Part shown: in pieces, positions 45,376 through 60,780 of the stretch
Layout of the letters: the number at the start of each line of letters is the position of its first letter
How positions within the stretch are numbered: position 1 is the first letter of the stretch
From: Mycobacterium paraseoulense
GTDB taxonomy: Bacteria > Actinomycetota > Actinomycetes > Mycobacteriales > Mycobacteriaceae
NCBI RefSeq assembly: GCF_010731655.1
Contig: NZ_AP022619.1
Span: 5,332,001-5,396,000, forward strand
Direction: 5' to 3'
DNA length: 64,000 nucleotides
Notes under the pieces: generated by a model
Databases searched by the model: none
What the model was told of the DNA's origin: nothing
What the model saw: only the letters and a program-made list of their open reading frames with translations
Translations under genes and position numbers: made by a program

Positions 45376-46383
45376 ATGGCACACACCGTGATAACCGGAG
45401 CAAGCGGGCTGCTGGGGGCCAACCTGGCCGCCGAACTGATCGCGCAGGGGCACACTGTGACCGCGACGCGTCGCCCGAGCACCGATACGAGTTCGCTGGC
45501 CGATCTGCCGATCGAGTGGGTCTGCGCTGACCTCGGCTCGGTAGCAGAACTCCGCGATGTGTTCGTCGGCGCCGACGTTGTCTTCCATTGCGCCGCATGC
45601 GTTTCGACCGGGCGGAGGGTCACGCCGGCGATCTCGGCGGTCAATGTTGACGCGACTCGAGCTGCCATCGAGGCCGCGATCGCCGTCGGTACGCCGCGGG
45701 TCGTCCACACCTCGACCGCGAACACGATCGGACCCACACCCGACGGCACACCCGCCGACGAGCAGACACCATGGGGCTGGGACCGTGCCGGGCTGGCCGG
45801 CGCTTACCCAGTGACCAAACGGCGCGGCGAAATCCTCGTGCAGCGGGCCTGCGACAAGCTGGATGCAGTCATCGTCAACCCGACCTACCTGGTAGGCCCG
45901 CGCGATGCCAGGCCCAGTTCCGGCCGTCTCATCGTCGAGGTCGCCAACCGCAGAATCCCTTATTGGACACCGGGATACAACAACTTCGCGGATGTCTGCG
46001 AGGTGGCGCGTGGCATGATCGCCGCGTGGCTGCGCGGGAAACGCGGCGAACGCTACATCCTGGGCGGCCAGGAGCTGACGTATCGCGAGTACCTCGAGCG
46101 AGTGGCGCGCGTGGTCGGGGTCGATCCGCCGCGTAGACGGCTGGCCTACCCGGTCGCATGGATAGCAGGTAAGGCCGGCGACCTGTTCGAGGTCGCCACC
46201 GGTCGGGAAACCACAGTGAACTCGATGTCTGTCGGATACGCGTTCACCGACCGGTACCGGTACCGGTGCGACAAGGCGGCGCGAGAGCTGGGCTATGTAG
46301 TGCGACCGATTGAACCTGCAATCCGCAACGCGGTCATATGGTTTCGCGCTCGAGGCATGATCCCATCCGTGGACATTCCATGA
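45376..46383 (+). CDS. extended SDR-family NAD(P)-dependent epimerase/reductase
   Basis: A 335-residue extended short-chain dehydrogenase. The Rossmann motif is GASGLLGANLA near residues 8-18, with TRRPST at the cofactor end, HTSTANTIGP carrying the active serine, and YPVTKRRGE with catalytic Tyr and Lys. The C-terminal half (NPTYLVGPRD, NFADVCEVARGMIAAW) matches dihydroflavonol-reductase/sugar-epimerase-like members. It starts 9 bases after the amidase and is convergent with the NRPS gene 36 bases away. It could modify the island product, but that is inference. Confidence 0.88.
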   Translation: MAHTVITGASGLLGANLAAELIAQGHTVTATRRPSTDTSSLADLPIEWVCADLGSVAELRDVFVGADVVFHCAACVSTGRRVTPAISAVNVDATRAAIEAAIAVGTPRVVHTSTANTIGPTPDGTPADEQTPWGWDRAGLAGAYPVTKRRGEILVQRACDKLDAVIVNPTYLVGPRDARPSSGRLIVEVANRRIPYWTPGYNNFADVCEVARGMIAAWLRGKRGERYILGGQELTYREYLERVARVVGVDPPRRRLAYPVAWIAGKAGDLFEVATGRETTVNSMSVGYAFTDRYRYRCDKAARELGYVVRPIEPAIRNAVIWFRARGMIPSVDIP

Positions 46384-46419: not shown

Positions 46420-49400
46420 TCAGAAGCGGTAGGTGGCGCAACCGACCTGGACACCTGAGCCGACCGTCACGATCAGCGCGATGTCGCCCGGCCGCACCAG
46501 CCCGCGCCGCCGGGCTTGTTGCAGCCCATACGGCAGCGACGAGGTGAACGGGTCGGCGGCCGGCTCCTCATCGGCGAGGTCGACGAATCGCGATCTCGGA
46601 ATGTCGATCTGGGCGCCCAGCTCGTCGAGCGCGGCCCGTGACAGGTACGGCGGCAACACGACCGCGATGTCGGAGGGGTCAAGTCCCTCCAACGCCAAGA
46701 GTTCCTTGGCCGCGGAGGGGATACAGCTCAGGTAGATGTCGGCGAGGTTGGGGTCGCGGTCGACCTGCAGCCGGGTCCGGCCGTCACGGTCCTGTGTGTA
46801 GGTGGCAAGCGCCGCGCCGTACTCCGGGTGTTGCTGGAAGATGAAGCGGCCGAAGCCTTCCGTGCCGTCGCTTCGGCTGACCAGAACGGCCGAGCCGGTC
46901 TGGTTGATGCCAATTAGCGGATCGCCGCTTTCGGGGGTGTTGTTTTCTATCTCCGAGGCCACGACCATCGCATGTTCAACCTTTCCCGCCCCGATCATCA
47001 CCGTGGCGACGTGGCAGGCGTTCAGGAAGCCGACCGCGCCGCCCAGGACGTCGAAGGCGAGGGTCTTGGGACCGTCCGGCGACTGCACGTCGCCGTTGAT
47101 GCCGAGTTCGCCGGCGACGAGCGAGGCAACGGCCGGTTCGCTGAGGAAGTCGTCACGGTAGACGCCGGCGTGAATGATCAGACCGACTGCCGCGCGATCA
47201 AGGCCGCTTTGGTCAAGGCACGCCGTCGCCGCTTGAACCGCGAACCGTATCGAGCTCGGAGCAGCCGATTGCGCTGCGGGAGCGATGCCCAGGCTGCCGA
47301 TGCGCACGCGGGGCGTCGCCGGTACATCTCTGCGGGCGCTGGTCCGCATGCTGCGGCCGTCCTGCCCGCCGGCGCCTCGGCGCATCCGGTCGGGCAGGTC
47401 GTCGAAGGTGTACAGCGCGGCACCGACGGTCTGTCCGGAACCGGTGATGGAAAAGACCACGTTGTCTCCGGAGTTGATCCGGTTGCTGAGGATGTAGTCG
47501 TTCAGCGCGACGAAGTGTGTCGTGGTGGCGGTGTTCCCGCGCTCTGCCACGTTGTAGATGGTGTTTCCCCGGTGGGCTGCGCCCGGTCCGAACATCCGAT
47601 TGACGGCGACGACCGCGTCGTTGAGTGATGCCTCGGACGTCTGGTGCATCAAGAGGTGATCACAGGTCTCCGGCCGCCATCCGTGCCGTTGCATGACTGC
47701 AGCGACGTAGGGCACCGCGTGCTTGACTGCGATCGCGGTCTGAGTGACGGAGTCGGTGAGCATGATCGCGCCGCCGTGCGGGGCCTCGGTCGCCTTGGCG
47801 ATGCACAGTCTGCTGTAGCGACTGAGGGTGGTCATGTCGATGTCGTGGAAGCCGACCCGGTTGTTGGGCCCGCGCTCCAGGATCACCGCCGCGCCGGCGT
47901 CCCCGAGGGTCAGGCACGCAAGGCGCGGGTCCATCGGCCCCTCGATTTCCTTTTGCGCGGTCTCGGTGAGGTGGCTGATGTATTCGCCGCTGACCACCAT
48001 CGCGCTCCGAACCAATCCGGTCTGCAGGAATGCGTCCGCCACGGTGATGCCGGTGAACATCCCGGCGCAGGCGTTGCTGATGTCGAAGGCCAAGGCGTTG
48101 ACGAGGCCGCATTGGTCGCGCAGCCGCGAGGAGGTGCTGGGCTCGAAGGTGAACCGATGGCCGAGTCCGTCGCAGCGGGAGATGTTGCAGGCGATGATCA
48201 GGTCGATCTCCTCGCGGCGATAGCTGGACCGGGAGAGGCAGTCCTCCGCCGCCTTCCGCGCAAGGTCGATCGAGAACTCGTCCTGGCCGGCCACCCGCCG
48301 GTTCTTGATGCCGGTCAGGCGTTCCAGCGGTATGCGGATTTCGTTGGCGCACTCCGCCATGACCGTCTTGGTCGACACGGTTCGCGCCGGGAGGTACACG
48401 CCGAGGCTTTCGATCACCGTGTTTCGCTTATCCTCGGGTGTGGTTTGCACCGGATTCGCAGGGGCGGGCGCCGTCAGGTCCGCCTCGGCGGGGCTATCGC
48501 GCCGATCCGTTGCCTCGCCGGCGATCGGGCCGTATTCGCTGGCGAGTTCGGCGATCGTGCCGTAGACGAACATCGACTCCGGTCGCAGGGGCAGGCCTGC
48601 CGCGTTCGCCCGGACCGCTACTTCCAGGCTCTGGGTCGAGGCGCCGCCGAGGGCGAAGAAGTCGTCGTTGACGCCGACCCGTTCCAGACCCATTACCTCG
48701 CACCAGATCTCGGCCAGAACCTGTTCGGTGGGCGTGCGCGGAGCCACGAACACCGGCTCCTGCGGTCCCGATGCGCTGTCGGCCGCCGTCAAGGCCCTGC
48801 GGTCCACCTTTCCGCTCGACGTGAGCGGCAGCGCGTCCGTCACCTCGAAGACCGCGGGCACCATGGCGGCGGGAAGCAAGTCAATCAGGAAGCGGCGCAA
48901 CTCCGCCGTCGACGGCGCGCCGCCGCCGGCCGGCACGACATGCGCGACCAGGATGAGGTTTCCGCGGCTGTCGGTTCTGATCACCACCGCGTTCTCGGCC
49001 ACCGCGGGGTGTTGCGCCAGCGCTGCCTCCACCTCGCCCGGCTCGATCCGGAAGCCGTGGATCTTGACCTGGAAGTCGATGCGCCCCAGGTAATCGATGT
49101 TGCCGTCGGGCAGATACCTGGTCAGGTCGCCGGTGCGGTAGAGCCGCTCACCGGGGTGCTCCGCGAAAGGATCGGCCACGAAGACGGCGGCGGTCAGGTC
49201 CGGCCGGTTGAGGTAGCCGCGGCCGAGTCCCACGCCGCCGATGTACAGTTCGCCGGGCACGCCCACCGGCACCGGTTGCAGATGCGCGTCCAGGATGTAG
49301 GCGCGGATGTTGGCGATCGGTCGCCCGATCGGCACCAGCGTGCCGGATTCGCCTCGCTCGCAGTGAAAGTGGGTGACGTCGATGGCCGCCTCGGTGGGCC

Positions 49401-51730
49401 CGTAGAGGTTGTACAGCTCGGCGTCCAGCGTGGCCAGGAAGTGGTCGCGCAGGTCGTACGGCAGCGCCTCACCGCTGCAGAACACCTGGCGCAGTGCGGT
49501 GCACGCGGCCACCCCGGGCTCGGCGAGGAACCGGCGCATCATCGACGGCACGAAATGCATTGTGGTGACGCGCTGTTCGACGATGGTCCGAACCAGGTAC
49601 GCGGCATCCTTGTGGCCCTCGGGTTTTGCGATGACCACCCGGGCGCCGACGATCAAGGGCCAGAAGAGCTCCCAGACGGATGGGTCGAAGCTCACCGGAG
49701 TCTTGTGCAGCACCCGGTCCTCGGGGGTCAGCCGGTAGGCGTCCTGCATCCACAACAGCCGGTTGCGGATCCCGGCGTGAGTGTTGAGCGTCCCCTTCGG
49801 CTTACCCGTGGAACCGGACGTGTGGATGACGTAGGCGAGGCTTGCCGGTGACGTCTCGGCGGTGGGGGCGGCGTCCTCGCCCGACGGTGCCGACGGCAGG
49901 TCCAGGCAGAGCCGGTGACCGGTGAAGCCGGGCGGCAGGTGCACCAGATTGCTCTGGTGGGTGACGCAGACCGGCGCTTCCGGTACGTCGTCCAGCATCG
50001 TGGCCATGCGCTGCGCGGGCTGCGCCGAGTCGAGCGGCATGAAGGCGCCACCCGCCTTGAGGACGCCCAGCACCGCCACCACCAGGTCCTCGGAGCGGTC
50101 CAGCAGGACGGGCACGACGACCTCGGGGCCCACGCCGAGCTGCCGCAGCCGGTGTGCGAGACCGTTGGCCCGGCGGTCGAGTTCCGCGTAGGTCACCTCG
50201 CGGTCACCACACGTCACCGCGACGGCATCCGGGGTGCGCACGACTGTGGCCGCGACCATCTCGTGCAGGCAGGCCGGGGCGTCATAGGCGGCCTCGGATT
50301 GATTCCAGGCGCGCTGCTGACGGCGCTCCCCGTCGGTGAGCAGCGGCAGCTGCGAGACCCGCCGGCCGGGATCGGCGACGATACCGGCGAGGAGCGTGAC
50401 GAAGTGCCCGGCCAGCCGCTCGATCGTCCCGGCCTCGAAGAGGTCGGTGTTGTACTGCAGGACACCGGACAGCTTCCCGTCGCGTTCGCCTATCTCCATC
50501 ATCAGGTCGAACGGCGCGCCACCCTGCCCGACATGAAGCGTCTCGAGCGGCAGCCCCCCGCGTTGCGGGTCCGGGTCGTCGGAGAAGCGGCGCGTCTGTT
50601 CCCAGGCGAACGAGACCTGGAACAGTGGCGTGCGGCTCGGGTCGCGCACCGGCCGAAGCCGCTCCACGAGCAGCGCGAAGGGATAGTCCTGGTGTTCGAG
50701 GGCGCCCTGCACGGTGTCCTTGATGCGGCCGAGCAGGGCCATGAACGCCGGGTTGTCGTGCAGGTCGGCGCGCAGGGCGACCGGGTTGGTGAGGTAGCCG
50801 ACCAGATCCTCCAGCACGACCCGGTCGCGGCACGCGAAAGGTGAGCCGATGACCACCTCGCCCTGTCCGCTGTAGCGGTGCAGCAACGCGGCGTAGGCCG
50901 CCAGCAGCGTCATGTAGGGAGTCGCACCCACGCGTCGGCCCAGTTGAATGATCCCGGCCGTCACCGTGTCGTCGATGGTGAACCGGTGCACGGTGCCGGG
51001 GTAGGTCTGGACGGCCGGTCGGGGCCGGTCGGTGGGCAATTGGAGGACCGGCAGTTCGCCGGCCAACTGCTCACGCCAATAGGTCCAGAGGTCGTCGCCT
51101 TTGGCACCCGCGAGCATGCGGGCCTGCTGGTCGGCATAGTCGACGAAGCTTTCCGCGGGCGGCGGGGGTGGGGCCGCACCGTGCTCGGCGGCGTAGAGCA
51201 GGCGCAGCTCGTCGAGAATGACGTCGATGGACCAGAAGTCGACGGCGATGTGATGCAAACCCAAGAGCAATACATGTTCCTCGGGTGTGCGCTCCAGCAG
51301 CGTCAGCCGCAGCACCGGGCCGGTGTACAGGTCGAAAGGACGGTCGGTCTCCCGGCGGATCCACTCGTCGACCCCGGGCTCACCGGAACCGAGATGATGC
51401 CTTGCGATGCGCACCGGCCAGTGCGGATGAACGAGTTGGACCGGTTGCCCGTCGCGCTCGGCGTACGTGGTCCGAAGCGTCGGATGCCGGTCGACGAGTG
51501 CCTGGGCCGCGCGTTCCAGCGCCGGCACATCGAGCTCGCCGCTGATCCGCCCGGCATACGTGACGTTGTAGGCGGCGCTGGTCGGTGCAAGTTTGTGGAT
51601 GAACCACATGGATCGCTGTCCGTACGACATCGGATGCGCCGAGGCCGATTCCTCGGCTTCCGCCATCAGCAGCTGGGACAGCAGCGCGCGCTTTTTCTCG
51701 GGAGACAGACCGGAGATGTCGATGGACTTA

Positions 51731-51738
<8 letters not shown>
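46420..51738 (-). CDS. NRPS (C-A-PCP) fused to two tandem KAS III domains
   Basis: A 1772-residue protein. N-terminal docking helix (about 1-35), condensation domain with HHIAVDFWS near 164, adenylation domain about 480-985 (YVIHTSGSTGKPKG, LYGPTEAAID, GELYIGG, KIHGFRIEPGEVE), PCP with LGGAST near 1031. KAS III domain 1 follows (about 1100-1440) with Cys in FDISNACAGM, His in LLMHQTSEAS and Asn in ERGNTATTT. KAS III domain 2 (about 1475-1772) has Ala in place of Cys (FDVLGGAVGF) and no His/Asn equivalents, so it is probably non-catalytic. The pocket residues read D-P-W-H-F-S-L-I-D, close to serine codes. There is no thioesterase or reductase domain. Overlaps the PKS stop by 8 bases (ATGACTGA). 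Confidence 0.93.
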
Positions 51739-59692
<7,954 letters not shown>

Positions 59693-59694
59693 GA

Positions 59695-60780
59695 CTATGA
59701 CCCTCCGAACGCCAGCGCCGGGTCGACCGCCACCGCGCGCCGCACGCCGGCCAAGCTCGCCAGCAGGCCGATCACCACCGCGGTCGCCACCAACGACAGG
59801 AAGGTCGAGGTGGTCACCACCACGAGCATCGGAAACATCGGGCCGAGCACCACCGCCAGCAGCCCACCGAGGACCGCGGCGACCAACGCGACGAGCACTG
59901 CCTGTAGCGCGAGCCCGGTGAGCACCGAGTGGCTGGGGACGCCGAGGGCTTTGAACACCGCGAAGTCGCGGGTGCGCTCCAGCGCAGAGAGATAGATCAG
60001 CGATCCCACGATCATCGCCGCCACTCCCCACAGCAGAATTGCCATATAGAACATCGCCAGGCGAGCCCCGTGCAGCGGGCGGACCATGTCGTCGATCGCA
60101 GCGCGGCGATCCGCGGCGCGATAGCCGGAGGGTATGTGGGCGAGTGTGCCGCGAACACCGATGGCGGAGACCACCGGCTGCGCGGAAAACATCAACCGCT
60201 GCGCCCCCGCAACGGTCAGAAACGCATTGGGTTGGCCTGCGAGCGTGGTCGACTTGTCGACCAGCCCTACGATCCGCAGCATCTCCGAACCCATCTCGAC
60301 GTCGCCACCAACGGGTCGCCCCAGCGTGTTCGACATGGCGACTTCACCGGGATTCGACGGTGCCCGTCCCGCAACGATCGGCGGCATCGCTTGGTCAGGC
60401 ACGCCGTAGACGTTCACGTTTTGCGGCGAGCGCCGATCTTGCAGGATCGTGTTGCCATAGACCACCGGGATCGCCGATGCGACGCCCGGGAGCCGTGCGA
60501 TCGCCTGTACTTCCGCCTCCGGGAACCTCGATGAACCCATGAACGGACCCACTGCGCCCGTCTGGATGAGGTAGGTGTCAATGCCCATCGAGTCGACCAC
60601 ACGCTGCGCCTCGACACGAAAACCGTGCGTCAGCCCGGTCAGGATGAGGGTCAGCGCGAATACCATTCCGGTGCCGACGGCCGCGATGATGAAGCGTCGC
60701 AGGCGCCATTGCATGTCCCGGAACGCGGTGATCAGCATTGGCGCGCACAGCTGTTTTCGCAGGTCACCAATAGATCCCAC
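59695..60780 (-). CDS. FtsX/MacB-type ABC transporter permease
   Basis: A 361-residue permease. One N-terminal transmembrane helix (about 28-50, RFIIAAVGTGMVFALTLILTG), an extracytoplasmic MacB-like domain of about 190 residues, and three C-terminal helices (about 240-350, MFYMAILLWGVAAMIVGSLIYL, then VLTGLALQAVLVALVAAVLGGL and the last). This is the type-VII ABC topology used for lipid, lipopeptide or peptide export, and resembles the Rv0072/Rv2563 permeases whose ATPases also carry a cNMP domain. It starts the operon with GTG at 60780; the ATPase-FAAL-PKS gene follows after two bases. Confidence 0.92.
   Translation of the reverse strand: MGSIGDLRKQLCAPMLITAFRDMQWRLRRFIIAAVGTGMVFALTLILTGLTHGFRVEAQRVVDSMGIDTYLIQTGAVGPFMGSSRFPEAEVQAIARLPGVASAIPVVYGNTILQDRRSPQNVNVYGVPDQAMPPIVAGRAPSNPGEVAMSNTLGRPVGGDVEMGSEMLRIVGLVDKSTTLAGQPNAFLTVAGAQRLMFSAQPVVSAIGVRGTLAHIPSGYRAADRRAAIDDMVRPLHGARLAMFYMAILLWGVAAMIVGSLIYLSALERTRDFAVFKALGVPSHSVLTGLALQAVLVALVAAVLGGLLAVVLGPMFPMLVVVTTSTFLSLVATAVVIGLLASLAGVRRAVAVDPALAFGGS

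Follow-up and report, generated by a model that had tools for sequence, protein, structure and literature searches.

Domain organisation of the synthetase

The 64,000-nucleotide stretch of Mycobacterium paraseoulense DNA studied here, referred to as the window, sits in a 6.09-Mb single-contig genome and encodes a nonribosomal peptide synthetase (NRPS) in which condensation (C), adenylation (A) and peptidyl carrier protein (PCP) domains are followed by two β-ketoacyl-ACP synthase III (KAS III) domains, K1 and K2 (Table 1). A preliminary description, made from the sequence alone, had reported this order, with two FabH-like domains in place of a thioesterase or reductase, and a Pfam search (E≤1) upheld it. 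Only six families matched the 1772-amino-acid protein, none of them a thioesterase, reductase or cyclase family; the adenylation part was recognized at residues 498-843 (AMP-binding) and 902-977 (C-terminal part), and the KAS III pair through ACP_syn_III and ACP_syn_III_C, each of which matched twice. Our analysis indicates that K1-K2 is probably a fused KAS III pseudo-heterodimer of the LstAB/OleA type, which would release a lipo-amino acid by non-decarboxylative head-to-head Claisen condensation.

Table 1. Features of the NRPS gene and of its neighbours, in window coordinates.
Feature	Position	Strand	Basis
NRPS, C-A(Ser-like)-PCP-KASIII-KASIII, 1772 aa, ATG start	46420..51738	−	Open reading frame (ORF) and Pfam
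Condensation domain, residues 36-474	50317..51633	−	Pfam PF00668
Adenylation domain, residues 498-977	48808..50247	−	Pfam PF00501/PF13193; code DPWHFSLID by alignment
PCP, residues 1007-1066, carrier Ser1034	48541..48720	−	Pfam PF00550
K1, intact KAS III, residues ~1105-1444 (Cys1224, His1365, Asn1402, Glu1199)	47407..48426	−	Pfam and alignment
K2, degenerate KAS III, residues ~1475-1772 (Ala1568 at the Cys position, Glu1534-Pro1535 kept)	46423..47316	−	Pfam and alignment
Codon of K2 Glu1534, proposed base for the K1 site (OleA Glu117/LstB Glu60 equivalent)	47137..47139	−	Conservation and OleA alignment; LstB match by position only
Single 2766-aa ORF: ABC ATPase and cyclic nucleotide (cNMP)-binding, then fatty acyl-AMP ligase (FAAL)-ACP-KS-AT-KR-ACP	51731..60031	−	Pfam
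FtsX/MacB-type ABC permease	59695..60780	−	Pfam
Extended short-chain dehydrogenase/reductase (SDR), HpnA/OleD-like, convergent to the NRPS gene	45376..46383	+	NCBIfam, weak assignment

The closest protein to the K1-K2 pair, with 98% identity, is found in Mycobacterium seoulense. An architecture search, which the preliminary description had proposed, was performed by scanning named genomes. In the best 80 of 153 candidate loci, the pair was fused to A-PCP or C-A-PCP in 53 loci, which belong to several phyla, and to FAAL-ACP in 2; it stood alone in the other 25, including at least one locus (L028) that starts at a contig end. These relatives rule out an artefact of the gene model or a pseudogene fusion, an explanation with practically no probability left, since the gene also lacks an internal stop and the pair is modelled with a pTM of 0.94.

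Conserved residues of K1 and K2

Conservation was studied in 218 K1-K2 pairs, consisting of the window protein and 217 of the 236 proteins recovered by protein searches; the 19 others were left out, as their alignments did not exceed 600 residues. The first KAS III domain had been described as keeping Cys, His and Asn, and K1 Cys1224, His1365 and Asn1402 are indeed invariant (218/218). The second had been called inactive, which is correct for its own triad. Ala1568 occupies the Cys position, where Ala (159 pairs), Ser (29), Gly (27), Pro (2) or Glu (1) but never Cys was found, and in the joint alignment Pro1697 and Asp1729 stand at the His and Asn positions, the latter in a gappy stretch. The term does not cover the whole domain, since a likely catalytic residue, Glu1534, was retained in all pairs. 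A Glu-Pro motif is kept throughout in both domains (Glu1199-Pro1200 in K1 and Glu1534-Pro1535 in K2, 218/218 each) as well as in 10 separately encoded K2 relatives (K2′). K2 is still constrained, with a mean frequency of the commonest residue of 0.675, against 0.754 for K1 and 0.549 for the linker, and with 20 near-invariant positions, among them Glu1534-Pro1535 (44 in K1).

When the OleA chain (3row) was aligned by HMMER with a separately encoded mycobacterial K1 relative, Glu fell on Glu, the OleA residue (Glu117) standing 26 residues ahead of Cys143. The joint alignment has Glu at this position in OleA and in all K1 and K2 rows shown, whereas two FabHs have Phe and Tyr; no such aromatic residue was found in K1 or K2, both of which have Glu. 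According to published work, Glu117 of one OleA subunit is the general base in the site of its partner (PMC7064751, PMC4578411) and is nearly always followed by Pro (PMC7064751), and PpyS uses the equivalent Glu, the base deprotonating the enzyme-bound acyl group (PMC4578411). LstAB is reported to be a KAS III heterodimer that joins two acyl-CoAs, with the triad in LstA, and its LstB E60A variant to be soluble but dead, LstAB activity being abolished (PMC12141560). The role of Glu1534 is modelled on OleA Glu117, for which it is reported, and on LstB E60A, for which it is implied. K2 thus probably lends a single catalytic residue to the complete active site of K1, and from the invariance and the alignment we infer that Glu1534 reaches Cys1224.

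The structure prediction of the C-terminal pair that had been called for gave a confident AlphaFold2 model of the 671 residues (mean pLDDT 90.4, pTM 0.94), in which K1-K2 is predicted to be a compact two-domain structure. K2 modelled alone (pLDDT 76.1, pTM 0.79) also adopted the KAS III fold, with tied top matches. The pair matched OleA, FabH, PqsD and PqsBC with tied scores, so the fold decides nothing among these classes. The likeness to PqsC/PqsB put forward in the preliminary description is a fair one at the level of the fold, PqsB/PqsC being an active/inactive KAS III pairing that acts on 2-aminobenzoylacetate. PqsBC was therefore kept as a fold-level analogue only, and the OleA/LstAB class fits better. 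Identity is 25% to OleA against 16% between K1 and a PqsBC chain, with tied Z scores (PqsB and PqsC being outside the tree).

Several known systems share part of these properties. LstA/LstB likewise combine, from adjacent genes, an intact subunit with a partner carrying an essential Glu, but they are two proteins, whereas K1-K2 is one chain C-terminal to a PCP, from which it presumably takes its acyl chain. In lipstatin biosynthesis, the amino acid is attached later by an NRPS, after LstAB has acted on two acyl-CoAs. OleA has the fold, the Cys-His-Asn triad and the Glu-Pro motif, with Glu117 given by the partner subunit, but it is a homodimer with two active sites, and its substrates are two free acyl-CoAs. 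PqsB and PqsC, which have the same fold as K1-K2, are separate proteins. Serine palmitoyltransferase, a pyridoxal phosphate enzyme acting on free serine, resembles the pair in the predicted outcome only, as in both cases the carbonyl of serine would end up as a ketone bearing a fatty chain; a sequence relation to K1-K2 is not claimed. PpyS (photopyrone) and MxnB/CorB are also KAS III enzymes joining two acyl chains, but they are single-domain enzymes with a pyrone product, and Val is reported at the Glu position in MxnB/CorB (PMC4578411).

Relatives, neighbouring genes and alternative reactions

Among 37 genomes of the genus (that of the window and 36 others), the fused protein was found in 4, adjacent K1′/K2′ genes in 11 and both in 2. 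K1′ shares ~38% identity with K1, and K2′ shares ~30% with K2 along part of its sequence. Fused K2 and separate K2′ grouped with 100/100 support and fused K1 and separate K1′ with 95/94; since K1s and K2s each cluster, whether fused or separate, the split into active and inactive partners is older than the fusion. In a further protein search, none of the 120 proteins listed bore the name LstB, and those named by organism were all mycobacterial. The genome of the window has a separate pair of its own ~57 kb away (G000:C1:5436986-5438882; L093 12857-14897), where K1′ overlaps K2′ and a nitroreductase-like gene, close to genes for a universal stress protein and a phosphoenolpyruvate-synthase-like protein. 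These surroundings, which are similar in L141, resemble a dormancy-regulon neighbourhood.

The regions with the strongest K2′ outside the genus were chosen from a class-wide search of 345 genomes. K1′ is present in L137, L138 and L139; the first also has K2′, an NRPS and an OleC-type ligase (459 bits), the second OleC (520 bits) and a gene that matches K2′, and the third K2′, OleC (498 bits) and OleD (217 bits). OleC was found beside 3 of the 6 separate-pair regions read, and OleD beside one. The K1′-K2′-OleC organisation resembles that of the lipstatin and nocardiolactone clusters. Nocardiolactone is described as a lipstatin-like product of Nocardia (PMC7413640).

Fused or stand-alone, K1-K2 is carried by mycobacteria, Nocardia, Chloroflexota, Planctomycetota, Bacteroidota and others. 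In 46 of the 53 fused loci, a KS is encoded by the gene immediately upstream or by the one before it, the 7 others corresponding to a short contig, a gene not picked or one ORF covering it. In Bacteroidota, K1-K2 is a separate gene and the NRPS (1067-1082 aa) ends right after the PCP in the three clusters read, which makes the stand-alone pair its natural release partner. Upstream of the pair and on the same strand, L004 and L059 have oleB-like, OleC and OleD genes. Those of L004 score 630 (OleC) and 416 bits (OleD) and are separated from the pair by two genes, those of L059 score 634 and 417 bits with a single gene in between; in L143, oleB-oleC-oleD come after the PCP-terminated NRPS. Across 12 Bacteroidota genomes with a multi-gene cluster (L012 being left out), OleD (1e-30) was found on the contig of the pair, 0.9-17.7 kb away, in 7. 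The chance of 7/12 within 20 kb is roughly estimated at 3.6e-11, for one random OleD per genome and assuming independence.

The A-domain code of the window (DPWHFSLID, by alignment) is close to serine codes. The 53 fused loci comprise 35 serine-like codes, 6 complete and one partial glycine-like codes (DILQLGMIW) and 11 different ones, and the three Bacteroidota clusters read are all glycine-like. Because the codes differ across the family, the reaction cannot depend on the serine hydroxyl, and serine-specific chemistry, such as lactonisation by this hydroxyl, was ruled out.

The SDR gene next to the NRPS gene encodes a candidate β-keto reductase, weakly assigned from its NCBIfam matches to HpnA (238 bits, cut-off 368) and OleD (66 bits, cut-off 580). 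In 24 of 36 mycobacterial loci, an SDR of this kind follows the NRPS gene in the same orientation, at a distance of at most 25 nt; in L018, L020 and L029, the sole SDR found is convergent, as in the window, and 34-1428 nt off. Where the mycobacterial code is serine-like, the SDR is present in 27 of 29 loci; all 6 loci with another code (L035, L046, L048, L049, L068 and L070) are without it, and L030 has neither code nor SDR. In L001 and a Saprospiraceae group, an SDR beside the pair matches 3-ketodihydrosphingosine reductase (KdsR) below the cut-off; at 146 bits for L001, against a curated cut-off of 400 and with other SDR models scoring higher, this is suggestive only. The Claisen model requires a reductase acting on a ketone adjacent to the amino acid.

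Other neighbourhoods of the pair were also noticed. Five stand-alone pairs (L053 12047-17836, L057, L058, L061 and L067) lie beside putative fatty acid hydroxylase and desaturase families, an OlsH-like GH3 (400 bits, cut-off 620) and a KdsR-like SDR; these families were typed from one member each, with partial gene sets in some loci, and the loci look like a further aminolipid pathway. FAAL-ACP-K1-K2 proteins without NRPS (L039 3875-10285 and L055 6956-13200) are found beside a family whose member in L069 (13021-14130) is a sulfotransferase, and may belong to a sulfolipid pathway. In L065 (797-12857, Gemmatimonadetes), the stand-alone pair stands directly ahead of two polyketide synthase (PKS) genes and could prime rather than release.

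A pair that passes the chain on, for example by priming a further PKS, or that edits the line without releasing anything, would account for L065, for the FAAL-ACP-KS-AT and FAAL-ACP genes that follow the NRPS in L050 and L054, respectively, and for a thioesterase family after the ktedonobacterial NRPSs. We consider it very unlikely, as no further assembly-line gene was seen in the window on the corresponding side of the NRPS gene, among the ORFs there that were included in the 10 submitted to Pfam, and as K1-K2 also ends the FAAL-ACP proteins of L039 and L055, which have no NRPS.

The preliminary description had left the choice between a Claisen condensation and an acyl transfer. In the latter, the acceptor of the N-acyl-seryl group would be a hydroxyl or an amine, and K1-K2 would act like the KAS III acyltransferases CerJ and ChlB3. 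The off-loading position of the pair suits this reaction and KAS III acyltransferases are documented (PMC4578411; ChlB3 is named in PMC9573744), but neither the invariant Glu of K2 nor the OleB/C/D neighbours would be explained by it. Acyl transfer thus appears distinctly unlikely, and that earlier proposal finds support in its Claisen half.

Some observations weigh against the OleA/LstAB-type condensation. K1 scored 141.6 bits on the general KAS III model PRK09352 and 129.4 on PRK09258, which we take to be an OleA-like model and a weak OleA marker here; its best PDB match by sequence was a FabH, and the grouping of OleA with K1 had a support of only 86/59, with a very long branch. The two scores and the weak place in the tree count against simply calling K1 an OleA. 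LstB Glu60 was paired with the K2 residue from its place in the chain, the corresponding Glu lying at 57-59 in three K2′ proteins and LstB itself being outside the alignment, and the L059 genome holds another KAS III with a higher score on PRK09258 (170.7 bits) than the pair. In the Bacteroidota sample, OleD was unlinked in 5 of the 12 genomes (none at 1e-30 in 3, on another contig in 2), and the 7 linked clusters share one inherited type, so that the low chance value shows a real linkage and not seven origins. OleC and OleD were not found at 1e-6 in L093, from the genome of the window, or in L140 and L141, of the same genus; the best OleC-like match in the whole genome of the window reached 94 bits, against 459-634 in OleC-bearing clusters. 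The SDR match was not found in 9 of the 36 mycobacterial loci, which were cut at 10 kb or less. Finally, one gene family follows NRPS-K1-K2 in the ktedonobacterial loci L002 (12080-12847), L003, L007 and L047, and is represented in L007 by a discrete thioesterase.

Part of this evidence would fit a decarboxylative off-loading, in which K1 would act like FabH or PqsBC: the N-acyl-seryl group would pass from the PCP to K1, and its condensation with a malonyl-thioester or β-keto acid would release CO2. By sequence, K1 is best matched by general KAS III/FabH models and by FabHs of the PDB, the solved active/inactive pair PqsBC has an approximately equal fold score, and 3 of the 6 separate-pair regions are without OleC/OleD. 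This reaction is nevertheless unlikely in our opinion, given the Glu found in both domains of all 218 pairs instead of the Phe/Tyr of the two FabHs, the linkage of part of the family to OleC/OleD genes and the lower identity to the PqsBC chain.

Proposed reaction and its products

The non-decarboxylative Claisen condensation could proceed as follows. Judging from its domains, the 2766-aa ORF would supply a 3-hydroxyacyl chain, FAAL loading a fatty acid on the ACP before one round of KS-AT-KR, and C-A-PCP would convert it to N-(3-hydroxyacyl)-seryl-S-PCP, as suggested by its domains and code. In K1, Cys1224, assisted by His1365 and Asn1402, would hold one acyl group, and K2, having lost its own active site, would project Glu1534 into the K1 site as base. 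The α-carbanion of a fatty acyl group, with acyl-CoA as the presumed partner, would then attack the other thioester. The N-acyl-seryl-PCP is most likely the electrophile, so that the amino acid carbonyl would become a ketone and the chain would leave the PCP; the opposite direction, leading to an α,α-disubstituted amino acid, is less likely on steric grounds. Release by joining to a second fatty chain is probable because one domain is intact and the other probably lends a catalytic residue.

The resulting α-alkyl β-keto acid may then be reduced or decarboxylated. With serine and a fatty acyl-CoA, loss of CO2 would give a 3-keto-ceramide-like lipid, while clusters with OleC/OleD may produce a β-lactone. 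Since the genome of the window lacks an OleC-like gene, its pathway cannot be lipstatin-like throughout and probably stops at a keto acid, ketone or alcohol. For this reason, and because its SDR is weakly OleD-like, we propose that the pair works like OleA/LstAB and do not file the locus as a lipstatin or olefin pathway. The FtsX/MacB-type permease is likely to be the export partner. In the relative L145, ABC-cNMP and FAAL-PKS are two genes with a 4-nt overlap, whereas they form one ORF in the window (51731-60031); this fusion may be strain-specific or due to an indel.

OleA/LstAB-type condensing enzymes are a known class, and what appears to be new is their fusion to the C-terminus of an NRPS as a release didomain. 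The preliminary description did not recognise the arrangement from described systems and, in agreement, no NRPS that terminates with two KAS III domains was found in the open-access literature, judged by titles and the starts of abstracts, subscription papers lying outside this scope. Tentatively, and with more doubt than for the reaction itself, mycobacteria and members of several other phyla might have an assembly-line route to ceramide-like lipids that dispenses with serine palmitoyltransferase: the NRPS would build an N-acyl amino acid (Ser here, Gly or others elsewhere), and the fused LstAB-type didomain would then attach another fatty chain to its carbonyl in a non-decarboxylative Claisen condensation. 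If true, this would add one more mode of termination to the hydrolysis/cyclisation and reduction used by NRPS lines, and sphingoid-like head groups could be made by a template-encoded route. NRPS lines would then end in a C-C bond made by a dedicated fused didomain and yield ketones, β-keto acids or β-lactones in place of acids, lactones or aldehydes. It would also provide a testable account of a degenerate KAS III domain kept in order to lend one Glu. As the pair behaves as a portable unit, fused or stand-alone, with serine-like, glycine-like and other codes and in several phyla, a sizeable unexplored class of lipids would be predicted.

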